Shown here: positions 29,461 through 45,548 of the stretch, piece by piece
Position numbering within the stretch: the first letter of the stretch is position 1
How the letters are laid out: every line of letters starts with the position of its first letter
Source: Candidatus Litorirhabdus singularis
Lineage (GTDB): Bacteria; Pseudomonadota; Gammaproteobacteria; Pseudomonadales; Halieaceae
Length of the DNA stretch: 64,000 nucleotides
Assembly (NCBI RefSeq): GCF_026262625.1
Contig: NZ_SHNN01000003.1
Span: forward strand, 124,001 to 188,000
Direction: 5' to 3'
Program-made: the position numbers and the translations under genes
Notes under the pieces: generated by a model
The model's database searches: none
Seen by the model: only the letters and a program-made list of their open reading frames with translations
Told to the model about the DNA's origin: nothing

Positions 29461-29584
29461 CTTTACCAGAATTGATTTACCGGAGTTAGCCTGCATCACA
29501 ACGGCACCCTGACCACTTTGGGCCGGTTGACGCCCCCATCACGACGACCTAGTATTAGTTGCATTAAAAGACTTGGTATTGAGT

Positions 29585-30328
29585 ATGAACGAAGCTTCTA
29601 CTACTGCACCCGGCGTGGCCTTAATCGTCGGTGCCGGCGACGCCATCGGCAGTGCTATCTGCCGTAAATTCGCCGCACGCGGCCTGACGGTATGCGCCGC
29701 CCGCCGCAATGCAGACAAACTGCAGCCGCTGGCGGATGAGATGGCCGCAGCCGGTCAGCCCTTCTATCCCTTCAGCTGCGATGCTCGCAACGAAGATGCG
29801 GTCATCGAACTGTTTACACATATCGAGCAGGACATAGGTCCACTGGAAATAGTGATCTTTAATGTAGGTGCCAATGTGCCCATGGGCATTCTGGACACCG
29901 ATAGCCGCAAGTTCTTCAAAATATGGGAGATGGCGTGCTTCGCCGGGTTTCTATGCGGTCGCGAGGCTGCGCGCCGTATGACCGAGCGCGGGCATGGCAC
30001 CATTATATTTACCGGTGCTACTGCCAGCAGACGCGGCGGTGCCGGTTTCGCCGCTTTTGCCAGTGCCAAACACGGCCTCAGCGCCCTCGCCCAGAGTATG
30101 GCGCGAGAACTGGGACCGCAAAATATTCATGTAGCGCACGTCGTTATTGACGCCGGCGTGGACACCGAGTGGGTCAGCAACATGGTGCCTGACTTCGAGC
30201 AGTTGAAAGCCGATGACGGCATCGTCAATCCCAATGACCTGGCCGACAACTACGTCATGCTATTTGACCAGCCGCGCAACGCCTGGACCTACGAGCTGGA
30301 CATCAGGCCCTGGCGTGAAAAATGGTAG
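29585..30328 (+). CDS. Atypical SDR-family protein lacking the usual Ser/Tyr
   Basis: A 247-residue Rossmann protein with the nucleotide motif GAGDAIGSAICRKFAARG near residue 15. In the active-site region FTGATASRRGGAGFAAFASAKHG the YxxxK motif reads FASAK, so the catalytic Tyr is Phe, and the aligned catalytic Ser position is Ala. The Lys is kept. I recognise this motif from a recurring subgroup of proteobacterial SDRs, so it is not a sequencing accident. Function unknown; either a different chemistry or a binding role. The ATG is preferred over an upstream TTG. Divergent from uxuA. Confidence 0.82.
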   Translation: MNEASTTAPGVALIVGAGDAIGSAICRKFAARGLTVCAARRNADKLQPLADEMAAAGQPFYPFSCDARNEDAVIELFTHIEQDIGPLEIVIFNVGANVPMGILDTDSRKFFKIWEMACFAGFLCGREAARRMTERGHGTIIFTGATASRRGGAGFAAFASAKHGLSALAQSMARELGPQNIHVAHVVIDAGVDTEWVSNMVPDFEQLKADDGIVNPNDLADNYVMLFDQPRNAWTYELDIRPWREKW

Positions 30329-31488: not shown

Positions 31489-32313
31489 TTAGTCCTTAAA
31501 ATGAGCCGGTCGCTTTTCCAATTCCGCCATCACTGCCTCTATCTGGTTTGGCGTACCGATAATGGCGTCCTGCTCGACCGACTCCATCATCAACCCGTCC
31601 TCGGCGCTAAGATAGTTCGCAGCATTAAACATACGTTTATTGGCGCGAATAGCGTCGGGGTTGCGCCCGGCGATCTGCCGTGCAAGAGTCATCGCGTGCT
31701 CATAGGGATCTTCCACGACCGCTGTAACCAGCCCCATTGTAAGAGCCTCCTCAGCGGTGAATATTCTTCCGCTGTAAGACAACTCTCGCACTACGTCATC
31801 GCGCAGCAGATGGCGCATTAACTGGGTGCCAGCCATATCGGGCACCAGACCCCACTTAATCTCCATGACAGATAATCGGGTACCAGGCGCCGCATATCGA
31901 ATGTCCGCACCCAGACACACCTGCAGGCCACCCCCTAGCGCCACGCCATGCACTGCCGCAATGACTGGCATGGGCAGCTCGCGCCACATCCAGCCAGCAT
32001 ACTGCGGTTGATTAGCGATGCCGTGAGTGCGCTCCGCCAACGTCTTGGGGACAGCTTTTGCCCCGCCTTTGTGCTCTGAGCTCTTACCGCCTTCGGCCAT
32101 GGCGGCAAAATTGGCCATATCCAGCCCCGCACAAAATGCCTTACCCTCACCGGAAAGTACTGCGACTCGCACACTGGGATCATTGCGCAACTGCTCACCC
32201 GCTTCCTCTATCGCTTTAAACATCGCTGCATCCAGCGCGTTCATCTTGTCTGAGCGCACCAGTCGCACATCGGCCACGCCGTCGGTAACCGTAATCTCAA
32301 TTCGATCTTGCAT
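31489..32313 (-). CDS. Crotonase/enoyl-CoA hydratase-isomerase family protein
   Basis: A 274-residue cytoplasmic crotonase. Oxyanion-hole blocks are clear: GKAFCAGLDMANF (near residue 65) and HGVALGGGLQVCLGADIRYA (near 120). The position of the second catalytic Glu reads MEIKWGLVPD, so one acidic residue of the hydratase pair may differ and an isomerase or other crotonase activity is possible. Last gene of the operon starting at the TetR gene; its start overlaps the end of the esterase gene by 17 bases. Confidence 0.9.
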   Translation of the reverse strand: MQDRIEITVTDGVADVRLVRSDKMNALDAAMFKAIEEAGEQLRNDPSVRVAVLSGEGKAFCAGLDMANFAAMAEGGKSSEHKGGAKAVPKTLAERTHGIANQPQYAGWMWRELPMPVIAAVHGVALGGGLQVCLGADIRYAAPGTRLSVMEIKWGLVPDMAGTQLMRHLLRDDVVRELSYSGRIFTAEEALTMGLVTAVVEDPYEHAMTLARQIAGRNPDAIRANKRMFNAANYLSAEDGLMMESVEQDAIIGTPNQIEAVMAELEKRPAHFKD

Positions 32314-33208
32314 GTAATTCTCTCTCTGTAGGATTGGCCTGCAGCGTGGACAACCACTGTGTCAGGCTGTTCATAAACTCGGTGAAGTGTACTGTTGGAC
32401 CTTCAGAACAGGCAAATCCATGAGCACTGTTGTCAAAGTGATGGCTAGCTACGGCAACACCTGCAGCAGCCAGCTTCTGTGCAAAAATTTTACCTTCATC
32501 GCGCAGCGGGTCAAACTCCGCAGTGCACAGAAAAGTGGGCGGCGACACTGCCAAATCATCAGAGCGCTGAGGCATGGCACGCTCAGCGGTGGGATCAGCG
32601 GAATCTAAACCTCCCAGATAGGAATCCCAGAACCATTGCATCAGCTTGAAGGTGAGCACGTGTCCGGTCGCATATTTTTGGTAGGAACTGTAGCCCGCTG
32701 TGTAATGGTCTACCGCGGGATAAATGAGCACCTGACCTAACACCGTCGGGCCCGGGTCACGCGGCAATGCCAGCGCCGTACACGCGGCCAGATTACCGCC
32801 AGCGCTGTCGCCGGCCAAGACCAGACTGCCGTTGTTGGGTCCGAGCTTGGTTGAGTGTGCGCCACACCATAAAGTCGCGGCCAGACAATCTTCTTGCGCC
32901 GCCGGGAATCGAAACTCAGGAGCCAGGCGATAATCTACGCTAACCACACTGCAGCCACTGGCCACAGACAGCTGCTGACAGAAAGGCGCATGGCTCTGGG
33001 TGTCACCGATGACCCAACCGCCACCGTGAAAGAAGACAATCAGTGGACGTTCGGCGCCGTCATCACTCGCAAACAGCATCAGGTCAAAATTATTGCCTGA
33101 CATCTGCAAGCGCTGGGCCTGATCGGACTGATAGTGGCCCTTCCACGCCGCATGATTCTGGTAGCGATAGAGGTGGCGTAGCAACCAGATCTTGATTTTA
33201 TTCAGCAT
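32297..33208 (-). CDS. Alpha/beta hydrolase, HSL-type esterase
   Basis: A 303-residue family IV esterase. HGGGWVIGD oxyanion motif near residue 59, GDSAGGN nucleophile elbow near 135, acid in EFDPLRDEG and His in SAHGFAC. It shares the operon with the acyl-CoA dehydrogenase and thioesterase; ATG overlaps the thioesterase stop by one base (TGATG). Probably opens an ester or lactone in the degradative route; substrate unknown. Confidence 0.9.
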   Translation of the reverse strand: MLNKIKIWLLRHLYRYQNHAAWKGHYQSDQAQRLQMSGNNFDLMLFASDDGAERPLIVFFHGGGWVIGDTQSHAPFCQQLSVASGCSVVSVDYRLAPEFRFPAAQEDCLAATLWCGAHSTKLGPNNGSLVLAGDSAGGNLAACTALALPRDPGPTVLGQVLIYPAVDHYTAGYSSYQKYATGHVLTFKLMQWFWDSYLGGLDSADPTAERAMPQRSDDLAVSPPTFLCTAEFDPLRDEGKIFAQKLAAAGVAVASHHFDNSAHGFACSEGPTVHFTEFMNSLTQWLSTLQANPTERELHARSN

Positions 33209-33636
33209 CAGCGCTTATCTCCCGCACTCACTGCGCGGCGCACGTTGAACACCCCGCTCATGGTCGCCAACGTCTGCTCGCCGCAGCAAATGCTGCCGCT
33301 AACGTGGGCGCTGCGCTTGCCCAGCCGGTCGATTTTTGTGGTCGCCACCAGCCAATCACCCAGCCGCGCCGGCGCGAGGAAATTAGTGGTCAGTGAAACC
33401 GTCGTCACCGCCGGATTGGGTCGTTCACTGAGGTATACCTGAAAACTCAAGGCAACATCAGCCAGGGTGCTCAACACCCCGCCATGGGCTATATCAATGT
33501 AATTAATATGTCCGTCACCGACCCGCAGCCCGACCTCATAACAGTCACCCACGGTACGCACATAATATGGTCCCCCGCGCTGCAGATAGGGCCCGTTGAA
33601 CTGGGCGGGTTGAAAGCCGTCGGGAATCTCACTCAT
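33208..33636 (-). CDS. PaaI-type hotdog-fold thioesterase
   Basis: A 142-residue acyl-CoA thioesterase of the 4HBT/PaaI group. The hotdog motif IAHGGVLSTLADVAL holds the catalytic acidic residue, followed by TTVSLTTNFLAPARLGD and the C-terminal strand LATMSGVFNVR. The start ATG lies inside the last codons of the phosphotransferase gene (eight-base overlap); the frame is open upstream but only by shadowing that gene. Likely releases CoA from stalled intermediates of the operon pathway. Confidence 0.87.
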   Translation of the reverse strand: MSEIPDGFQPAQFNGPYLQRGGPYYVRTVGDCYEVGLRVGDGHINYIDIAHGGVLSTLADVALSFQVYLSERPNPAVTTVSLTTNFLAPARLGDWLVATTKIDRLGKRSAHVSGSICCGEQTLATMSGVFNVRRAVSAGDKR

Positions 33637-35056
33637 TAATGCTCTCCCCTTGCCGACTAGCAGCCACCTGCAGAGCCCCGTAGCGCGGCTGATCAATGGC
33701 CAATTGTCCGGCAACGGTTTGGCGCATATGCTCGGCCAGACCTGGAGCATCCAGAGCCAAGCCCTGACGCAGTGCCACAGCCAGCTGACGCCTTAGGCTC
33801 AGTGCATCGCCCGTGGCATTGAGTAATTGCTGCAGCCGGGTTGCTTCTGCCTGCGCCAGTTCCGTTCCATAGTCAGCTTCACGACGTGCGGTCGCTATAG
33901 AATTGGCTGCCACCCGTGACAGAAATGCCAGCCGCGGGTCAGCGCTGGCGCTAACCTCCTCGCGCAGGAAGGTCTCGACACTGGAAAGTAGCTCATCAAG
34001 CACCGGTAACTGGGTCTCCATAGCGGCTTCGTTAGCCCCTGTGGGCAATACAAAATCACCGGGGATCAACAGATTAACGCAGTCCATCTGAGCCTCCGAC
34101 GAGCGTCTGCCAATCGCCGGACGCTCTACGCTGGGGTTATCTCCGCTGCGCCAGCTCTGCGCCATGCGCAGACACGCAATGGCCCACCAAAACGAACCGA
34201 AAACCTGCCAATAGTGCAACTGCTCATGGGTCACCGCGACTTTGGCAACGGCGTTATAACCGGCCAGCAAATCTTCTATGTGGCCAAACCCACCGACTGG
34301 CAGCTGAGTGTTACCAAAACGCCAGGAATTAACGCACAGCCAACCAAGATCGCGAACCGGATCGCCCAAATGTGCGATCTCCCAATCCAGCACCGCAGTA
34401 ATTCCGGCCTCAGTCACCATCAGGTTGCCATTGCGAAAATCGCCGTGCACCAGATTGATTTGCGGATTTTGCGGCAGGTTCTGCAGCAGCCAGCGCGCGG
34501 TGTAATCCAGCATCGGCTCAGCAAGTCCCAGTTCCTGGTAATAGTTCCAGGACTCGTGCACCAGTTGCTCTGGTGTGAGCTGCATCAAGTGCTGATCGAG
34601 GCCTTCAGTACGCCAGTCAATATTGTGAATACGCGCCAGAATCTCACCACACTGGCGCGCCAGCTGCGGCCGCACCACCGCCAACTGCTCCGAGCGAACA
34701 ATACGCGAGCCCAGGGTTTCACCGTCTAACCACTGCATGAAGAAGCCACCGCCAAGGCCGTCCTCCTCGCGCAATACATAGTAAATCTCTGGCTCCGGAA
34801 TACCGGCTTGGCCCATTAGCTGCAATAGTCGCGCCTCTGCATCCAGGCCGATACCGGCGACGTCACCGGTGTCAGTACCCCCCAGTGGCGAGCGGCGCAG
34901 TGCGTAAAAGCATTCGACACCGCCGATAAGGACCTTTAAACGATAGGTCTCCAGACTGGCCCCTGCAGTCAGCCGCGAACAATCCAGCAGCGCCTCGAAA
35001 CCCGCGAATTCGCGAGCCATAACTGCGGCGACACCTTCTTCAAATTTATCGGACAC
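33629..35056 (-). CDS. Phosphotransferase (APH fold) fused to DUF6285
   Basis: A 475-residue two-domain protein. The N-terminal part (to about residue 330) is an aminoglycoside-phosphotransferase/choline-kinase fold with HGDFRNGN (204-211, catalytic D206) and metal-binding DWE (224-226). The C-terminal 110 residues match DUF6285 (DPRLAFLSRVAANSIATARREADYG). Such kinases next to acyl-CoA dehydrogenases resemble Pseudomonas LvaA and mammalian ACAD10/11, which phosphorylate the hydroxyl of a hydroxyacyl-CoA so it can be eliminated. One-base overlap with the dehydrogenase gene strongly supports joint function. Confidence 0.88.
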   Translation of the reverse strand: MSDKFEEGVAAVMAREFAGFEALLDCSRLTAGASLETYRLKVLIGGVECFYALRRSPLGGTDTGDVAGIGLDAEARLLQLMGQAGIPEPEIYYVLREEDGLGGGFFMQWLDGETLGSRIVRSEQLAVVRPQLARQCGEILARIHNIDWRTEGLDQHLMQLTPEQLVHESWNYYQELGLAEPMLDYTARWLLQNLPQNPQINLVHGDFRNGNLMVTEAGITAVLDWEIAHLGDPVRDLGWLCVNSWRFGNTQLPVGGFGHIEDLLAGYNAVAKVAVTHEQLHYWQVFGSFWWAIACLRMAQSWRSGDNPSVERPAIGRRSSEAQMDCVNLLIPGDFVLPTGANEAAMETQLPVLDELLSSVETFLREEVSASADPRLAFLSRVAANSIATARREADYGTELAQAEATRLQQLLNATGDALSLRRQLAVALRQGLALDAPGLAEHMRQTVAGQLAIDQPRYGALQVAASRQGESINE

Positions 35057-36324
35057 TAGTCGTCTACACCTTTGGGCGCCTGCTGCTTCATAAACCCGAA
35101 CAGGTAACCTGCGACACGGCGCATCTGAATCTCTTCAGCACCTTCAGTAATTCGATAACGACGGTGATGACGATAAATGTGCTCAAACGGCTTATAACGC
35201 GAGTAACCCAGGCCACCGTGCACCTGCATGGCACGATCCGCCGCCTCACAGCACAGACGATTAGACCAGTAGTTACACATGGAAACTTTATCGGAACAGG
35301 AAAACGCGCCTTCGGTGTCCATCAGCCAGGCAGTCTTGTGAATCAACGCGCGCAACATTTCACACTGTGTTTGCAGCTCTACCAGAGGGAACTGAATGCC
35401 CTGATTAACGGAGAGCGGCTTACCAAACGGTTTGCGCTCCATCGCGTATTTCACCGACTCGTCAATGCAGTACTGGGCCGCACCCAGGCTTGAGGCCGCC
35501 TGACGAATCCGATTCTCATTAAAGAAATGCTGCACCAATTGCAGGCCCCGGCCCTCGCCGCCGAATATTTCGGTATCGGCAATGCGCACATCCGTGAAAG
35601 AGACATGGGCATGGTCACTGGGCATATTGAAGGTCCACAGATACTCCTCAACCTTGACCCCTGGCGCGTCCATCGGCACCAGGAATGCGGTAATACCTTT
35701 GCCATCGCCAGGTTCTCCCGAGGTACGTGCCATAACAATATCGCGCGTCGCCTTGTGCACCCCGGTGTTCCAGGTTTTCTCCCCTTTGATAATCCAATGG
35801 TCACCGTCGCGCACGGCGGTGGTTTCCATGTAAGTGGCATCAGAACCGTGAGCGGGCTCAGTAATACCCATAGCAAAACCCACCTGACCCGCTGCCAGAC
35901 CTTTGACCCACTGTTCCTTTTGCGCCTCGGTACCATATTCAAGCATCAGCAGCAGGCCGATGTTATTACCAACGATGGCGTGCTCATTCTGCAGGTCACA
36001 GTGCAGCCCCAAACCTTTGTGTGCCAGATGCTCGCGAATAATCGCCATGCCCAAATTACTGCCGTCACGACCACCATATTCGCTGGGGAACGGATAACTG
36101 AATAGCCCCGCTTCCACTGCCAAATTACGCGCCTGACGCAGCAGGTCTTCCCACTCCTCATTGGGTAAGCCCTCGCGTTCCCAATCGGTACGGGCATCCT
36201 CACGACGGTGGTCGAAGAAACGCATATTGTCGTCCTTGCGCTCCAGCGGCTTAATTTTGTCCTCAATAAACTGGTCCACCTCGACCAGGAAATTGGCGAT
36301 ATCCTCAGGGATATTAAAATCCAT
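35056..36324 (-). CDS. Acyl-CoA dehydrogenase (ACAD10/11-like)
   Basis: A 422-residue FAD enzyme. Substrate/FAD blocks include QVGFAMGITEPAHGSDATYMETTA and HWIIKGEKTWNTG; the C-terminal QVHGGLGYSRYKPFEHIYRHHRRYRITEGAEEIQMRRVA holds the catalytic-base Glu at the usual place (TEGAEEIQ, where YEGT is common). Because it is fused by one-base overlap to the phosphotransferase, it may act on phospho-acyl-CoA, eliminating phosphate like LvaC/ACAD11, rather than as an ordinary beta-oxidation enzyme. A GCAGGAG ribosome site precedes the ATG. Confidence 0.9.
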   Translation of the reverse strand: MDFNIPEDIANFLVEVDQFIEDKIKPLERKDDNMRFFDHRREDARTDWEREGLPNEEWEDLLRQARNLAVEAGLFSYPFPSEYGGRDGSNLGMAIIREHLAHKGLGLHCDLQNEHAIVGNNIGLLLMLEYGTEAQKEQWVKGLAAGQVGFAMGITEPAHGSDATYMETTAVRDGDHWIIKGEKTWNTGVHKATRDIVMARTSGEPGDGKGITAFLVPMDAPGVKVEEYLWTFNMPSDHAHVSFTDVRIADTEIFGGEGRGLQLVQHFFNENRIRQAASSLGAAQYCIDESVKYAMERKPFGKPLSVNQGIQFPLVELQTQCEMLRALIHKTAWLMDTEGAFSCSDKVSMCNYWSNRLCCEAADRAMQVHGGLGYSRYKPFEHIYRHHRRYRITEGAEEIQMRRVAGYLFGFMKQQAPKGVDD

Positions 36325-36377
36325 TGTTTTGCTCCTGCTTGTAGTTATTAGTTATTAGTGACTACGGTTATTCGTTA

Positions 36378-36809
36378 CTACTGGGCTCTGACGTAAGACT
36401 CCAGACCGGAAGACATGCTCTGGTAGGCGGCTTCCAGCTCGGCGCTAACAGTGGCCTCGTTGATTTCAGGTAAGACCTCGAATTCGCCCTTCCAATTAAG
36501 ACTACAGCTGCCGTTTGTTATCGCTTCAACTTGCACTCGGGCTTGGTAGCTAGCCATGCCACCTGCTCCGGCTGCGGTCAGCGAATAGGTGAGTGCCAGC
36601 GCCTCCGGATCCAGTGCGTCTAGCCGCTCACTGATTTTGCCGAGGCCAGGTATATCCAGATGTCGAATCATACCTACACCCTGCCCTTGCAGCTCCACCG
36701 TGCCCAAACCACCTGTGGCCCAGTCCAGAAATTGCCCAAAGTCAGCCAACACAGACCAGACATCTTGCGCAGCGCATTGCACCGGTATTACACAGCTGAC
36801 TGTGGTCAT
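36378..36809 (-). CDS. SRPBCC (START/Bet v1-like) family protein
   Basis: A 143-residue helix-grip protein of the polyketide-cyclase/START type: an opening VSCVIPVQCAAQDVWSVLADFGQFLDWATG, a central beta sheet and a long C-terminal helix (AELEAAYQSMSSGLESYVRAQ). Such proteins bind hydrophobic ligands in a deep pocket and can be ligand carriers or cyclases. It sits 12 bases after the TetR gene and 53 before the dehydrogenase gene, so it probably handles the operon's substrate. Confidence 0.82.
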   Translation of the reverse strand: MTTVSCVIPVQCAAQDVWSVLADFGQFLDWATGGLGTVELQGQGVGMIRHLDIPGLGKISERLDALDPEALALTYSLTAAGAGGMASYQARVQVEAITNGSCSLNWKGEFEVLPEINEATVSAELEAAYQSMSSGLESYVRAQ

Positions 36810-36821
36810 AGGCTATTCTCG

Positions 36822-37475
36822 TCAAACATTATCACTCCAATTTTTTAGCACGATTTGGCCCTGTTCACTGACCACACCGGACAGCGACGTTAGCATGCTC
36901 TGACGAGACATTGTGGGCAGGCTCGACAGGCTTAACAAGCCCTTATTCCAGAGCAGTAGCACACCCCAGGTGTGCGCCGTCAGCAGCGCTGCTGTGCGAG
37001 CTGATTGCACTCTCCGGGTAAGCTCGCCGCGGCGCTGAGCGTGCCGTAACTGACGTTGCAGAAACTTTTGATTGGACCGCAACAGCAGGTCGACGATGGG
37101 GCTTGAATCCTCAGCCTGAAAAAGTGCCCTCGACATAGCTTGAGCATACTCCGGGCTGACCAGAATCTGTGCGCTAATAGCATCCGTGTAACGTAATATC
37201 GCTGCAAGGCCCGCGGCTTGCTCACCGGCTTGCACCTGAGTAACGATGGCATCCAGCAGGTCGGCGACCGCGGCCATGACCAGCCCGTCCTTGGTAGCAA
37301 ACAGGTTATAAAGGGTTTTGTCGGAAACCTCACTAACCCGCGCCAGTTCACGCATGGTCAGCCCATCGTAGCCACGATTGGCAATCAGCTCTCGCGCTGA
37401 TTGCAGCACACGCTCCTGGCGTTCTTGCTGCCGTGGTGAAGAATAGCTGCCACGTTTGCTGCCCACCTTTGCCAA
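36822..37475 (-). CDS. TetR-family transcriptional regulator
   Basis: A 217-residue regulator. The N-terminal helix-turn-helix reads GLTMRELARVSEVSDKTLYNLFATKDGLV (about residues 38-66); the rest is a ligand-binding helical domain. It starts with TTG after a GAGG ribosome site; a GTG three codons later is an alternative. It is first gene of the seven-gene minus-strand operon and divergent from the P450 gene, so it probably represses both directions from the 109-base gap until a pathway intermediate binds. Confidence 0.9.
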   Translation of the reverse strand: MAKVGSKRGSYSSPRQQERQERVLQSARELIANRGYDGLTMRELARVSEVSDKTLYNLFATKDGLVMAAVADLLDAIVTQVQAGEQAAGLAAILRYTDAISAQILVSPEYAQAMSRALFQAEDSSPIVDLLLRSNQKFLQRQLRHAQRRGELTRRVQSARTAALLTAHTWGVLLLWNKGLLSLSSLPTMSRQSMLTSLSGVVSEQGQIVLKNWSDNV

Positions 37476-37524: not shown

Positions 37525-37557
37525 TTGCTATTCAAAAATACACCATGCTATATTTTT
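37525..37557 (+). promoter_or_regulatory. Candidate P450 promoter with overlapping inverted repeat
   Basis: TTGCTA (37525-37530) and TATATT (37549-37554) are spaced by 18 bases. The inverted repeat AAAAATA (37534-37540) and TATTTTT (37551-37557) lies over the spacer and the -10, a good place for repression by the neighbouring TetR protein. Prediction from sequence only. Confidence 0.4.
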
Positions 37558-37584
37558 TAAAATAATTTATCAGGAACCCTCGCC

Positions 37585-38733
37585 ATGCACTTTTATGACC
37601 CTGACATCGCGGCCGACCCCTACCCCCATTACCAGCACTGGCGGGAGCAGCAGCCGGTTTTCCGTGATGAGACGTCAGGCCAATGGATAATCAGTCGCCA
37701 TGCCGATGTGGTTGCAGCCCTCAAAAATCCCCAATTGTTCTCTTCCTCAGCTTTCGCCCAAAGCGAACAAAGTGCTGTCACCCTACCTTTATTGTCAGAT
37801 GATCCACCGCGCCATACCCAGTTGCGAGCGCTGGTTAACCGCGCCTTTACCAGCCGCACGCTGAAGCAAATTGAAGCCGACGTGGTCCGGCTCAGTAACA
37901 GTATGATTGCGGCATTACCCAGCGGCGAGCCGGTAGACATCGCCGAACAATTCACGATCCCGCTGCCGGTGGCAGTCATCGCCCAGATGATGGGTATTCC
38001 AGTAGCACGCGGCGAAGACTTCAAGCGCTGGTCCGACGCGCTGACCGGCACCTCGGAGGCGGATGACATGGAGTCGCGCATGCCCGACATCATGGAGATG
38101 GCCGCGTTCTTCAGCTCGCTGATACCGGAACGGCGCGCCAATCCCGGCCAGGATCTTATTAGCCAGGTGGTCAATGCCGAGGTCGATGGAGAGCACATGT
38201 CGGATGAGGACATTGCGGGCTTCTGCATGCTGCTGTTGATTGCTGGTAATGAAACCACCACTAGCCTGCTCAGCAATCTTCTACACCATGCCGCCAGCAA
38301 TCAGGGGGTATGGCAACAACTGCGTGACAACCGCGATGGCATTGATGCTGCCATCGAGGAAATATTGCGCTTTGATGCGCCGGTGCAGTTTGTGTTTCGT
38401 ACGGTGATGGAAGATTTCACCCTGCACGGACAGCAACTCAGCGCCGGCGATATTGCAGTGCTGCTGATGGGCTCTGCCAATCGTGACTCAGATCACCACG
38501 AGACCCCCGAGCAATTTCGCCTGGACCGTAAACAGAACTCGCACCTGACCTTTGGCCACGGCATTCACTTCTGCATTGGTGCACCGTTGGGCCGACTGGA
38601 AGCCCGCATCGCCCTGGAGTCAATGCTCGATCGATTCAGCTCCGTGCACCACGCTGAACAAGCCAACGAACGAACGCACTCCCAAATGTTGCGCGGCTTC
38701 CACCACTTGTGGCTGGAATTTAAAACTGCCTGA
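37585..38733 (+). CDS. Cytochrome P450
   Basis: A 382-residue soluble P450. Heme loop FGHGIHFCIGAPLGRLEAR with ligand C330; I-helix LLIAGNETTTSLL with the oxygen-activating Thr; K-helix EEILRFD; DDPPRHTQLRALVNRAF near residue 72. The class is broad, and substrate cannot be assigned. It is followed 15 bases later by the Rieske oxygenase gene, so the two oxygenases form an operon. Neither ferredoxin nor reductase is encoded nearby. Confidence 0.93.
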   Translation: MHFYDPDIAADPYPHYQHWREQQPVFRDETSGQWIISRHADVVAALKNPQLFSSSAFAQSEQSAVTLPLLSDDPPRHTQLRALVNRAFTSRTLKQIEADVVRLSNSMIAALPSGEPVDIAEQFTIPLPVAVIAQMMGIPVARGEDFKRWSDALTGTSEADDMESRMPDIMEMAAFFSSLIPERRANPGQDLISQVVNAEVDGEHMSDEDIAGFCMLLLIAGNETTTSLLSNLLHHAASNQGVWQQLRDNRDGIDAAIEEILRFDAPVQFVFRTVMEDFTLHGQQLSAGDIAVLLMGSANRDSDHHETPEQFRLDRKQNSHLTFGHGIHFCIGAPLGRLEARIALESMLDRFSSVHHAEQANERTHSQMLRGFHHLWLEFKTA

Positions 38734-38748
38734 AGGAGCATTAATACC

Positions 38749-40008
38749 ATGACCATGAGCCAGGAAGAAGTCAGCAAGCTGCGCCACTTAATGGAGTTTG
38801 AAGCTACCCGCACCGAGCCTCCCCTGGCCTGGCCGCGGACACCGGATATTCCTGCTGGCCGCTACGTCGACCCGCGTTTCTTTGCCCTGGAGCAGGAGCA
38901 CGTATGGCGCAAGTCCTGGCTACTGGCGGCTCACATTGACGAGGTACCGGAGCCCGGTTGCTTCATGCTGTGGGAAAATACCGGCCAACCGATAGTCATT
39001 ACGCATGCCGAAGACGGCCAGATAAACGCCTTTTATAACACCTGTAGTCATCGCGGTGCGCCCGTAGTCACCCAGCCCAGTGGCAAAAAGAAGCGCCTGA
39101 CCTGCGCCTACCATGGCTGGAGTTACGATCACTCCGGTGCGCTCTGCGCCATTCGTGACCCGGAGGACTTTCATGATCTGGACCTGTCTCAGCGCGGGCT
39201 TCAGCCAGTGCGCTGCGAGCGCTTTGGGAATCTGATTTTTGTCAATCTGGACCCGCAGGCGATGACACTGCTGGAGTGGCTGGGGCCTATTGCCGACGAA
39301 TGGGAAGAGTTTCAGTTTCACAACTGCCGACTGGCCGCCCGCCATATCTTCGATCTCGACTGCAACTGGAAGATCGCCATGGAGGCTAACACCGAGGTCT
39401 ATCATGTGCGCAGCATTCACCCGACTACCGTCGCCCCCATCCTTGATGACCGCCGCAACGTCAATACGCTTTACGCCAATGGCCACGGCCGCATGGTGGC
39501 GCCCACTCCAGCAGGTAAGTCGAGTTTGGAAGCCGTGGCAGCACCACCCGATATCGCCCAGATCGATGGCGTCGGCGAGATTGGCCGCACCTGCACACAG
39601 TCCTACGGTTTGTTTCCCAACTATGTGTCGCCGCTGAGCCAGTTCGCGATTCCACCGATTCTGTTCTGGCCCAACGGCATCAACAAGTGCCGCATGGAGA
39701 CGTGGACCATGGCGCCAGCCTGGAAAGAGGGTATGAAGCCCAACCTGTGGACTGAGAACGATGGTGCCAGCCTATGTCAGGTGCTGTTGGAGGACACCCA
39801 GTTCGGTGAGAAAATTCAAAAATCGATGGAATCCCTGGGGTTCAAGGGCGTGCCGCTGAGCTACCAGGAGGCCCGCATTTACCACTGGAACGAGGCCGCC
39901 GATCGTATGATCGGCATTGACAATATTCCCGAGGAATTACGCGTCGCGCAGGTGATTGGCGAAGAGTGGATTTATCCCAATGATCCGCGACTGGAACAAA
40001 TGGCCTAA
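38749..40008 (+). CDS. Rieske non-heme iron oxygenase, alpha subunit
   Basis: A 419-residue terminal oxygenase subunit. The [2Fe-2S] Rieske ligands are C99, H101, C119 and H122 (CSHRG and CAYHGW). The mononuclear iron site is in NWKIAMEANTEVYHVRSIH, with the bridging acidic residue and the two His. Family members hydroxylate aromatic or aliphatic rings or demethylate methoxy/quaternary amines. AAGGAGC precedes the ATG. No small (beta) subunit gene is adjacent, consistent with the homotrimeric alpha-only type. Convergent four-base overlap (CTAA) with the hydrolase. Confidence 0.9.
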   Translation: MTMSQEEVSKLRHLMEFEATRTEPPLAWPRTPDIPAGRYVDPRFFALEQEHVWRKSWLLAAHIDEVPEPGCFMLWENTGQPIVITHAEDGQINAFYNTCSHRGAPVVTQPSGKKKRLTCAYHGWSYDHSGALCAIRDPEDFHDLDLSQRGLQPVRCERFGNLIFVNLDPQAMTLLEWLGPIADEWEEFQFHNCRLAARHIFDLDCNWKIAMEANTEVYHVRSIHPTTVAPILDDRRNVNTLYANGHGRMVAPTPAGKSSLEAVAAPPDIAQIDGVGEIGRTCTQSYGLFPNYVSPLSQFAIPPILFWPNGINKCRMETWTMAPAWKEGMKPNLWTENDGASLCQVLLEDTQFGEKIQKSMESLGFKGVPLSYQEARIYHWNEAADRMIGIDNIPEELRVAQVIGEEWIYPNDPRLEQMA

Positions 40009-43889: not shown

Positions 43890-44645
43890 ATGAATGAACT
43901 CAAAGGCAAGGTAGCCATTGTCACCGGTGCTGGCCAGGGCGTGGGCCAGGGCATCGCGTTTGCGCTATCAGATCTGGGCGCCAGTATTGTGGTGGCTGGA
44001 CGTACTTTTTCCAAGCTGGAAACCAGCGTCGCCGAGATTGAATCACGCGGCGGCCGTGCAATCGCAGTCGCCTGCGACGTTAATGATCTCGACAGTCTGG
44101 AGAATTTAGTAGCACAAACCATAGAGCATCTCGGGGGCATTCAGATACTGGTTAACAACGCTCAGGAAGTGCCTCTGGGGACGCTAATGGAAGTCAGCGA
44201 CGAGGCCTTCACCAGTGGCTTTACATCTGGACCACTGGCCACCCACAGGCTAATGAAGCTGTGCTACCCGTACCTGAAGGGCGATGGCTGCATCATTAAC
44301 CTGGGCAGCACCGCAGCGCGGCGCTGGGATATGAGAGGCTATGGTGCCTACGGTGGCATCAAAGAGGCGATTCGTTGCCTGACCCGAGCTGCTGCCTGCG
44401 AATGGGGTAAGGATGGCATTCGCACCAACGTCATTCTGCCGCATGCTACCTCTCCGGCCCTGGGCTGGTGGATCGAGAACAACCCTGAAGAGTCTGCCGA
44501 GTTTATTTCGACCATACCCATGCAGCGTGTGGGCGATTGTGAACAGGATATTGGCCGCTTCGTTGCCCGCCTGTGCACCGAAGACAGCGCCTACGTTAAT
44601 GGCCAGAGCATCGCGTTGGACGGCGGTCAGGGGCTGATAGGCTAG
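43890..44645 (+). CDS. SDR-family oxidoreductase
   Basis: A 251-residue SDR. Cofactor motif TGAGQGVGQGIAF is near residue 11, VNNAQ replaces the NNAG motif, the catalytic Ser is in NLGSTAAR and YxxxK reads YGGIK. The end VNGQSIALDGGQGL is typical. R41/T-type residues after beta-2 (VAGRTF) suggest NADP(H). The stop codon is followed directly by the ATG of the esterase gene (TAGATG), so both are one operon. Confidence 0.9.
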   Translation: MNELKGKVAIVTGAGQGVGQGIAFALSDLGASIVVAGRTFSKLETSVAEIESRGGRAIAVACDVNDLDSLENLVAQTIEHLGGIQILVNNAQEVPLGTLMEVSDEAFTSGFTSGPLATHRLMKLCYPYLKGDGCIINLGSTAARRWDMRGYGAYGGIKEAIRCLTRAAACEWGKDGIRTNVILPHATSPALGWWIENNPEESAEFISTIPMQRVGDCEQDIGRFVARLCTEDSAYVNGQSIALDGGQGLIG

Positions 44646-45548
44646 ATGGCCATCAGCACAGCATTCCAGCAACTACTGGACGCGATCCCGGACGGTCTTA
44701 ACGCACCCAGCGACGATGTGGCCACGGTGCGCGAGAAGATGGCGCCGCTGCACGGCCACGAACTACCCGCCCAGGCCAGCGTCGAATTGCTGCAGATCGG
44801 CGAACGTGCGGCGGCCTGGGTCAATCGCGATGACCTGCGCCAACCCGGTCGCCACGCCCTGTTTTGCCACGGTGGCGGCTTTGTTTCGGTGCGCATGCCG
44901 GAATACCTGTTCTGGGCAGAATATGTTGCTCGCTATCTGGGCGCGCGCACCCTGGTACCCGATTACCGGCTGGCACCAGAGGCTGCATTTCCCGCCGCGC
45001 TGGACGATTGCTTTGCGGCCTATTGCTGGATGCTGGAACAAGACATCGACCCACAAACCATTGTAATTACCGGGGATTCTTGCGGCGGCGGCCTCGCTGC
45101 GGCAGTGATGTTGAAGGCGGTTGCGCAAGGTCTGCCGGTACCGGGCTGCCATGTTGGTTTTACCGGTTGGTATGACCTGACCCTCCCTGGCGCATCCGGC
45201 ATCGACCCGGGCGGCAGAGATCCTTTTATTACCCCGGGCTGGTATCAGCGTCGTGTCAAAGACTATCTGGCTGGCGCCGACCCACGGCTACCATTGGCAT
45301 CGCCGGCACAGGCGGACTGCGAAGGACTGCCACCGCTGCTATTACAGGTGGGTGGCTGTGACATTACGCGTGACAGTGCAGTGGCGATGGCCGCCGCAGC
45401 CGGCGCCGACGGTGTTCAGGTAGAGCTACAAATCTGGGCGGGCATGCCACATGGCTTTCAGGGACTGGTGGGTAGTGAGATACCTGAAGCCATCAGCGCT
45501 TTTAAGTCTGCGCGACAGTTCGTCGACAAACACCTCACCTCCCATTGA
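44646..45548 (+). CDS. Alpha/beta hydrolase, HSL-type esterase
   Basis: A 300-residue family IV esterase. HGGGFVSVRMPEY oxyanion motif near residue 75, nucleophile GDSCGGG near 144 (Cys where Ala is usual after the Ser), and catalytic His in MPHGFQG. The acid motif is changed from DPLRDE to CDITRDSA. Its ATG abuts the SDR stop. Likely hydrolyses the ester made or used by the partner SDR; substrate unknown. Confidence 0.88.
   Translation: MAISTAFQQLLDAIPDGLNAPSDDVATVREKMAPLHGHELPAQASVELLQIGERAAAWVNRDDLRQPGRHALFCHGGGFVSVRMPEYLFWAEYVARYLGARTLVPDYRLAPEAAFPAALDDCFAAYCWMLEQDIDPQTIVITGDSCGGGLAAAVMLKAVAQGLPVPGCHVGFTGWYDLTLPGASGIDPGGRDPFITPGWYQRRVKDYLAGADPRLPLASPAQADCEGLPPLLLQVGGCDITRDSAVAMAAAAGADGVQVELQIWAGMPHGFQGLVGSEIPEAISAFKSARQFVDKHLTSH

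Follow-up and report, generated by a model that had tools for sequence, protein, structure and literature searches.

In the levulinate (lva) system, as described in PMC6692424, PMC11342911 and PMC12440821, the kinase LvaA prepares 4-hydroxy acids for degradation and has LvaB as its small partner. These sources also place in the lva operon the reductase LvaD, the ligase LvaE, the transporter LvaFG and the regulator LvaR. In the ACAD11 model presented in PMC12440821, R86 and R176 are CoA contacts, while R626, H634 and R637 hold the 4-phosphate and are the residues whose replacement is reported there as most disruptive. A further described enzyme of the APH fold, 25-hydroxy steroid kinase (25-HSK), acts on a tertiary sterol alcohol and so readies it for dehydration (PMC8449060; PDB 9fsg, 9ft5). 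Here, we compare these systems with a gene cluster found in a 64,000-nt stretch of DNA from Candidatus Litorirhabdus singularis (“the window”). The core of the cluster is a two-enzyme module, i.e., a kinase and an acyl-CoA dehydrogenase (ACAD), and not a seven-gene pathway.

Organization of the locus

Seven ORFs lie on the minus strand, and ORF calling and domain searches bear out the families that the first-pass annotation assigned to them. The first ORF, which has a TTG start, encodes a TetR-family protein that is probably a local regulator (36822–37475). It is followed by genes encoding an SRPBCC protein of the Pfam family Polyketide_cyc2 (36378–36809), the ACAD (35056–36324), the kinase (33629–35056), a PaaI-like hotdog (4HBT) thioesterase (33208–33750, the coordinates of the longest ORF), an HSL-type esterase of the Abhydrolase_3 family that is a member of the operon (32297–33208), and a protein of the crotonase/enoyl-CoA hydratase family (31489–32313; NF005699, 342 bits against a cut-off of 249).

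Of the six junctions between the genes, four are overlaps and two are gaps. The gaps, taken from the coordinates, are 12 nt between the TetR and SRPBCC genes and 53 nt, the loosest junction, between the SRPBCC and ACAD genes. The reported one-base overlap of the ACAD and kinase genes can be read directly in the sequence, TAGTG, in which the ACAD stop codon and the GTG start codon of the kinase have one base in common. The kinase gene overlaps the longest thioesterase ORF by 122 nt; an inner ATG at 33636 is probably the true thioesterase start, which would reduce the overlap to 8 nt. The thioesterase and esterase genes overlap by 1 nt, and the esterase and crotonase genes by 17 nt. Genes for a P450 (37585–38733) and a Rieske enzyme (38749–40008) are divergent from the seven genes, as the first-pass annotation stated. 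Between the divergent genes, the only candidate for a TetR operator was an AT-rich 15-nt inverted repeat (37531–37560; 80% complementary), to which we give no weight.

The kinase and its DUF6285 domain

Pfam domains APH (residues 28–259) and DUF6285 (residues 372–459) are found within the single kinase ORF, the DUF6285 region being the helical, C-terminal part of the protein (33629–34024, minus strand). The catalytic motifs of the kinase are intact, with HGDFRNGN for HGDxxxxN and LDWE for DWE. DUF6285 also matches, at 85.3 bits, the lvaB product from the lva-like operon of a plasmid record, where the name lvaB is the record's own annotation; the LvaB protein has no NCBIfam match. A profile of 6 rows headed by this lvaB product, set against one of 3 rows headed by the window domain, gave a probability of 99.3 and an E-value of 6.4e-21. 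As LvaB belongs to DUF6285, the gene looks like a fusion of an LvaA-type APH kinase with an LvaB-family domain. Some other DUF6285 proteins have only sub-threshold NCBIfam matches, to unrelated models, and the term “DUF6285” was not found in a search of 5.39 million open-licence papers.

In a tree of kinases, 51 rows that include LvaA_stz and the window kinase group with a support of 93, and kinases of the ACAD10/11 type group with a support of 86; both groups are unstarred. The structure 3dxp groups with the ACAD10/11-type kinases. The structural model of the window kinase is good (pLDDT 89.7), and most fold matches cover residues 1–334. The fold search gave a Z-score of 26.9 for 3dxp and 23.4 for 25-HSK, the latter with a best Foldseek E-value of 1.8e-11. 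Sequence comparisons gave E-values of 1.3e-24 for 3dxp, 1.1e-15 for ACAD11, and 2.6e-10 for 25-HSK. The alignment has Ala in place of R86 of ACAD11 and a gap in place of R176. Both positions are Arg in four kinases of the host genome (L002, L003, L005, and L007), in 3dxp, and in ACAD11. Both arginines are missing from the lva-operon kinase as well, and their absence is therefore no argument against CoA esters.

The partner ACAD

The first-pass annotation likened the ACAD to LvaC and ACAD11, a view that its residues and its position in the tree rule out. The catalytic position is occupied by Glu (E394), as it is in 80 of 80 relatives; ACAD11 (D753, mouse) and seven aligned HCMR ACADs have Asp. 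The HCMR motif is absent, the window ACAD having RQAAS, with Gln for H634 and Ser for R637 of ACAD11. Among the rows of the window clade, Gln is found in all 54 (some of which are repeats) and Ser in 98%, while the 18/18 score of the HCMR comparators holds by construction, these having been picked for the motif. Upstream, R626 of ACAD11 is replaced by Phe. In the tree, LvaC and ACAD10/11 form a clade (99*) that excludes the window ACAD and its relatives, which we refer to as “win-type”; these are a possible sister group (support 91, unstarred).

The window ACAD does not fall among the ordinary short- or long-chain dehydrogenases either. Butyryl-, medium- and short-chain enzymes lead a phmmer search of the PDB, with ACAD11 at rank 31–32, a ranking that suggested an ordinary SCAD/MCAD-type enzyme. 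Against this, win-type ACADs form a clade of their own with many unique invariant polar residues, including an invariant charged cluster. They have an insert near residues 35–48 that is unique to them, as well as polar motifs; the signatures HFFNENRIRQAASSLG and HHRRYRITEGAEEIQ mark the window protein, in which residue 351 is Asn (Lys in 31 of 32 other ACADs compared). Comparison of folds did not discriminate, with Z-scores of 34.7 (6fah), 33.9 (8sgs, SCAD) and 33.4 (2wbi, ACAD11). With a pLDDT of 79.1, the structural model of the ACAD is no more than fair, and we therefore draw no claim about the pocket from it; its weakest stretches (residues 36–40, 107–116, 233–235 and 392–395) fall within or next to the conserved segments that are unique to the clade.

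Conservation of the pair

Among 398 genomes of the phylum, DUF6285 is present in 29 of 30 with a win-type ACAD versus 10 of 368 without (Fisher p = 1.9e-34), where the 30 include the window genome and nine members of one genus (g384), and related species are treated as independent. The class sample, which shares genomes with the phylum sample, gave 4/4, the window genome included, versus 4/270. The ACAD and kinase genes are adjacent in 19 of the 29 co-occurring phylum genomes and apart in 10. When 80 relatives of the ACAD were compared, 37 lay beside a fused APH-DUF6285 gene, 18 beside separate APH and DUF6285 genes, and 4 beside a kinase only; 14 had neither kinase nor DUF6285 beside them, and 7 had too short a flank. 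DUF6285 is found elsewhere in the genome for 13 of the 14 relatives without an adjacent pair. Across the 80 loci, the pair survives fusion, splitting, and reversed gene order. It is widespread, occurring in Pseudomonadota, Actinomycetota, and one Myxococcales MAG, and no description of it was found in the open-licence literature.

The rest of the cluster is not conserved with the pair. When the window proteins were used as blastp queries (E 1e-8) against 40 loci from the same family or order, the seven genes were never found together (0/40), and the recurring unit is the ACAD and kinase alone. When neighbors around the 80 loci were clustered at an identity of at least 40%, the clusters spanning >12 loci consisted of the ACAD and the kinase, together with shadow frames whose example coordinates overlap these two. 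Looser clustering (E 1e-18; 116 loci, with family names taken from the 80- and 40-locus comparisons) found SDRs in 37 loci, acyl-CoA ligase-like proteins in 20, the enoyl-CoA hydratase family in 20 (window crotonase included), and the HSL esterase in 5 (window included). In a minority of loci, then, broad beta-oxidation families also recur around the ACAD. The P450 and Rieske enzyme, which the first-pass annotation took as the likely source of the hydroxyl, do not follow the pair: P450-like neighbors occur in 7 of the 115 compared loci besides the window, and a looser blastp search found P450-like proteins in 6/80 and 3/40 loci and Rieske-like proteins in 3/80 and 0/40. Neither these two genes nor the other five of the operon are steady neighbors of the pair. 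A seven-gene pathway is therefore ruled out as the unit, since the conserved neighbors are the ACAD and the kinase.

DUF6285 kinases also occur with other ACADs. Their partners are HCMR ACADs in the lva-like clusters found in Stutzerimonas, Thermus and Azospirillum, and the same pairing occurs in 5 of the 40 relatives. In Variovorax (L051), a DUF6285 kinase adjoins an ACAD of a third kind, which is Glu-type and is the nearest reference (34%) for ACADs found ~5 kb and 1.6 kb away at L061 and L062. No ACAD adjoins the kinase in 6 of the 40 same-family or same-order loci, of which at least one (L175) ends at a contig end; none is listed near the kinase at L217. HCMR-partner kinases occupy two places in the kinase tree. 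Holding them together was not rejected (p-AU 0.061, and 0.123 in a second test), nor was holding the win-partner kinases together when kinases without a typical partner were left aside (p-AU 0.194); an earlier form of the latter test, with p = 3.6e-9, had counted partnerless kinases among the win partners as outsiders. We make no claim of a proven switch of the kinase between two kinds of ACAD.

Possible functions of the pair

The two enzymes together probably remove a hydroxyl from a fatty-acid-like compound. We give even chances to a scheme in which the kinase phosphorylates a hydroxyacyl-CoA, a flavoenzyme that is not an LvaC handles the product, and beta-oxidation follows. First, the fused LvaA-LvaB kinase would use ATP to phosphorylate the hydroxyl of a hydroxyacyl-CoA, as its family suggests. 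Second, the neighboring ACAD would act on the phosphorylated acyl-CoA, as their linkage suggests; most likely, phosphate would be expelled while the flavin briefly carries the hydride, yielding an enoyl-CoA. Third, beta-oxidation enzymes would continue; one of them could be the operon crotonase, hydrating the enoyl-CoA. In favor of this scheme are the family of the kinase and its LvaB-family domain, the co-occurrence of the two genes, the LvaD-like SDRs near some of the pairs, and the unique invariant polar residues of the win-type ACADs. Counting against it are the Phe, Gln, and Ser at the three positions that hold the phosphate in the ACAD11 model, the DUF6285 kinases beside a third-kind ACAD or beside none, the 10 phylum genomes with the genes apart, and the beta-oxidation families around a minority of the loci. 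The substrate is probably other than an ordinary 4-hydroxyacyl-CoA, because the host genome has separate ACAD10/11-type kinase-ACAD pairs (two of its four HCMR ACADs lie beside kinases of that type). A bolder and more tentative reading is that win-type ACADs may be a second class of phosphate-eliminating flavoenzyme, built independently of the first. They would work with the same LvaAB kinase system but hold the phosphate in a different pocket, for which R274, the RFFDHRRE insert, and the HHRRYR run are candidates. Their substrates would be hydroxyacyl-CoAs beyond the reach of ACAD10/11 and LvaC, and DUF6285 would in that case be a general hydroxyacyl-CoA kinase subunit.

Alternatively, the ACAD could be a plain FAD/ETF alpha,beta-dehydrogenase of a polar substrate, with the kinase serving another step of the same catabolic pathway, on a different intermediate. 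We consider this rather unlikely. Glu at the classical catalytic place, the phmmer ranking, the genomes in which the two genes are apart, the third-kind ACAD beside a DUF6285 kinase in Variovorax, and the SDR, ligase, and hydratase families around a minority of the loci are all consistent with it. However, the kinase is the sole gene found beside the ACAD in most loci, the other families being scattered, and the invariant cluster of charged residues would be unusual for such an enzyme.

The first-pass annotation favored an ordinary lva-type route, from 4-hydroxyacyl-CoA through 4-phosphoacyl-CoA to 2-enoyl-CoA, as in LvaAB-LvaC or ACAD10/11. Half of this analogy holds: the kinase is of LvaA type, carries an LvaB-family domain, and is tied to its ACAD across phyla. 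The HCMR ACADs found beside other DUF6285 kinases also fit, as do LvaD-like SDRs (43–49% to LvaD relatives): seven of the 80 loci have one on the same strand, ≤3.4 kb downstream, and an eighth (L139) has one on the other strand. Nevertheless, we regard this route as improbable for the window pair, whose ACAD has neither the catalytic Asp, nor HCMR, nor R626 and lies outside the LvaC/ACAD10-11 clade, while the host's four HCMR ACADs are available for that job. A kinase acting like 25-HSK is very improbable: 9ft5 and 9fsg rank second to fourth by fold, 25-HSK also matches in sequence, the two modelled CoA contacts of ACAD11 are missing, and P450 and Rieske genes are nearby, but 3dxp and ACAD11 are closer in sequence, the lva-operon kinase lacks the same contacts, and the recurring neighbors, surveyed as clusters, showed no set of steroid genes.

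Under the preferred scheme of phosphorylation followed by a non-LvaC flavoenzyme, DUF6285 gains a proposed function, namely the role of LvaB in hydroxyacyl-CoA kinases, within a widespread kinase-ACAD pair whose ACAD departs from the known phosphate-eliminating type. If true, the pair would be a second solution to the problem of a hydroxyl standing in the way of beta-oxidation, and would add a catabolic route in marine and soil bacteria.

Comparison with known systems

The pair resembles LvaAB in having an APH kinase with HGD and DWE motifs, a DUF6285 (LvaB) partner, and an ACAD alongside; it differs in that kinase and LvaB-family domain are one chain and in that the partner ACAD is not LvaC. 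Unlike the lva operon, the seven genes include no LvaD reductase, CoA ligase (LvaE), transporter (LvaFG), or PrpR/LvaR-type regulator, and have TetR, SRPBCC, thioesterase, esterase, and crotonase genes in their place. The window ACAD shares with LvaC, ACAD10, and ACAD11 the ACAD fold, a genetic tie to a kinase, and a possible sister-clade relationship, but it has Glu for Asp753, Gln and Ser for H634 and R637, and Phe for R626. With SCAD and MCAD it shares Glu at the classical catalytic position and 26–30% identity in fold alignments, but it sits in its own clade and has many invariant polar residues that are absent from those enzymes. 25-HSK and the window kinase have the APH fold in common, although 25-HSK is farther from it in sequence than 3dxp and ACAD11 are.

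Organization of the locus

Seven minus-strand ORFs span the window from 37475 to 31489, encoding, in order, TetR, SRPBCC, an acyl-CoA dehydrogenase (ACAD; 35056..36324), an APH kinase carrying DUF6285 at its C-terminus (33629..35056), a hotdog thioesterase, an HSL-type esterase and a crotonase. The first-pass annotation had described this arrangement, and all seven ORFs were recovered with their families. The ACAD stop codon and the kinase start codon share a single base (TAGTG). P450 and Rieske genes run in the opposite direction, beginning at 37585. Directly upstream of the P450 start is an AT-rich 15-nt inverted repeat (37531–37560; 80% complementary), a possible TetR operator. Elsewhere, on the plus strand (43890–45548), an SDR-cluster ORF and a second HSL-type-esterase-cluster ORF are arranged head to tail.

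The kinase resembles a fusion of LvaA and LvaB

Within the single kinase ORF, Pfam models match both APH (111 bits) and DUF6285 (78 bits). In a plasmid record, an lva-like operon comprises a prpR-type regulator, phosphotransferase, lvaB, ACAD, SDR, acyl-CoA synthetase, DUF485 and symporter genes; its lvaB, annotated “4-hydroxypentanoyl-CoA kinase subunit LvaB”, encodes a DUF6285 protein (85.3 bits). A Stutzerimonas plasmid has a near-identical gene order, with DUF6285 annotated at the place of lvaB and an additional histidine phosphatase gene. Profiles led by LvaB (six rows) and by the window DUF6285 (three rows) match with a probability of 99.3 (E 6.4e-21). LvaB (12 kDa) was found to interact with LvaA by pulldown, and strains without lvaA, lvaB or lvaC do not grow on levulinate (Rand 2017, as related in excerpts of PMC6692424). 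Because DUF6285 matches LvaB, and LvaB interacts with LvaA, we read the window gene as a putative LvaA–LvaB fusion, which bears out the likeness to the lva pathway proposed earlier for the kinase.

The catalytic motifs HGDFRNGN and LDWE are preserved. In the modelled ACAD11 kinase, R86 and R176 contact CoA (PMC12440821, in excerpt); the window kinase aligns Ala with the former and a gap with the latter. These arginines are also missing from the lva-operon kinase and all other aligned rows with a DUF6285 partner, and are kept in ACAD11, the PDB kinase structure 3dxp and four ACAD10/11-type kinases of the window genome (L002, L003, L005, L007). In a tree of 59 kinases, the 51 DUF6285-linked rows, one of which (L088) has no DUF6285 detected nearby, form one group (support 93, unstarred), separate from the ACAD10/11-type kinases (86, unstarred).

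The ACAD belongs to a separate clade

Conserved features of ACAD10/11 and LvaC are a catalytic Asp, HCMR and an upstream Arg, and nonconservative changes of R626, H634 and R637 are the most disruptive to ACAD10/11 (PMC12440821, in excerpt). The window ACAD has Glu394 for the catalytic Asp, Q275 and S278 for H634 and R637, and F for R626. Four HCMR ACADs of the same genome (L010, L011, L015, L017), two of them adjoined by kinases (L010, L017), behaved as expected as positive controls; L010 matches ACAD11 with E 1.4e-110, versus 2.3e-38 (rank 31) for the window ACAD. In a tree of 81 ACADs, the window type falls outside the LvaC/ACAD11 clade (99, starred) and forms its own long-stemmed clade (100, starred), sister to the former at 91 (unstarred). 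The LvaC/ACAD11-like enzyme suggested in the first-pass annotation is thus not what the residues and tree indicate.

A comparison of 54 rows of this clade (some sequences twice) against 18 ACADs with HCMR and 32 without revealed unique, (near-)invariant residues in an insert (R35, D38–E42, R45, T46, W48), at H108, D110 and Q112–H115, at W230, N233 and D237, at E270, N271, R274 and Q275, at N351, and preceding the catalytic Glu (H387, R389, Y390). The position of N351 is Lys in 18/18 HCMR and 31/32 other ACADs. The usual ACAD pocket is described as mostly hydrophobic (PMC12440821, in excerpt), in contrast to these residues, some of which may line it.

Linkage of ACAD and kinase

Among the best 80 of 584 ACAD relatives in named genomes (≥72% identity), all 80 keep NENRIRQ and the Glu. 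A fused APH-DUF6285 gene lies within 3.5 kb in 37, separate APH and DUF6285 genes are adjacent in 18 (the kinase match of one, L139, is weak), and a kinase only is found in 4 (a contig end truncates two of these loci, and in another the match is weak and inverted). The flank was too short to judge in 7, and neither partner is adjacent in 14; 13 of those 14 genomes encode DUF6285 elsewhere.

In an evenly drawn phylum sample of 398 genomes, 30 have the ACAD, 39 have DUF6285 and 29 have both, adjacent by coordinates in 19 and apart in 10; G711 is the sole ACAD genome lacking DUF6285. DUF6285 thus occurs in 29/30 genomes with the ACAD versus 10/368 without (Fisher p 1.9e-34), and in a class sample of 274 genomes in 4/4 versus 4/270; p values are overstated, because both samples include the window genome and overlap in other genomes as well, and because related species do not count as independent observations. 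Adjacent pairs occur in gammaproteobacteria, an alphaproteobacterial MAG (L138), Sulfitobacter, Actinomycetota and a Myxococcales MAG (L073).

The TetR, SRPBCC, thioesterase, esterase and crotonase genes are inconstant neighbors across the compared loci. The closest relative locus (L174; ACAD 88%) has the pair and a TetR at 40%, with a fragment at its edge 82% identical to the window SDR (29573–30328). Counting the window, enoyl-CoA hydratase-family genes occur in 20/116 loci, P450-like neighbors in 8/116 and HSL esterases in 5/116; the esterase is 3′ of the pair in L129 and L201. In 7/80 loci an LvaD-like reductase (43–49% identical to LvaD relatives) is encoded downstream of the pair at a distance of ≤3.4 kb, and in L139 one lies on the other strand. 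Since such reductases are near some pairs, there is a hint that the hydroxyl can arise by ketoacyl-CoA reduction, as in the lva route.

Partners of DUF6285 kinases

We surveyed the neighbors of 40 of 67 kinase matches from same-family or same-order genomes, a survey of the kind that the first-pass annotation had proposed. The ACAD beside the kinase is of the window clade in 29 and of the HCMR type in 5, and 6 have none. HCMR ACADs adjoin DUF6285 kinases in Thermus, Azospirillum and Stutzerimonas, and in Variovorax the partner is of a third, Glu-type kind. On a Cupriavidus pinatubonensis plasmid (L217, 6872–8280), dapA-annotated and indolepyruvate ferredoxin oxidoreductase family genes adjoin the kinase, with no ACAD among the annotated genes listed nearby, possibly an alternative use. 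Given this range, DUF6285 kinases go mainly, not exclusively, with two ACAD kinds. Tests of tree topology do not establish a change of partner within the kinase lineage. The fusion is not limited to the window-type partner, since at L059 (6866–8326) one adjoins an HCMR ACAD.

The window genome has four further ACAD10/11-type kinase–ACAD neighborhoods (L005/L010, L002/L017, L007/L019, L003/L029), two with HCMR and two with HAMR ACADs; its only DUF6285 copy is the window's own. In four lva-like clusters (L050, L052, L053, L216) the DUF6285 gene is followed by one of the histidine phosphatase family, and such a gene lies beside lvaA in P. citronellolis (PMC6692424, in excerpt). This phosphatase may recycle phosphoacyl-CoA.

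Possible function and relation to known systems

In our preferred reading, which we hold to be about as likely as not, the kinase would phosphorylate a hydroxyacyl-CoA and the ACAD, as a so far undescribed kind of flavoenzyme, would remove or use the phosphate. The main alternative, which we consider rather unlikely, is that the ACAD is a plain dehydrogenase acting elsewhere in the same pathway. The kinase–ACAD principle itself is already known from the lva system and from ACAD10/11 (PMC12440821 and PMC11342911, both in excerpt). As far as our searches of open-licence papers go, the identification of DUF6285 with the LvaB family, the LvaA–LvaB fusions and the conserved pairing of the kinase with an ACAD that forms its own clade are new.
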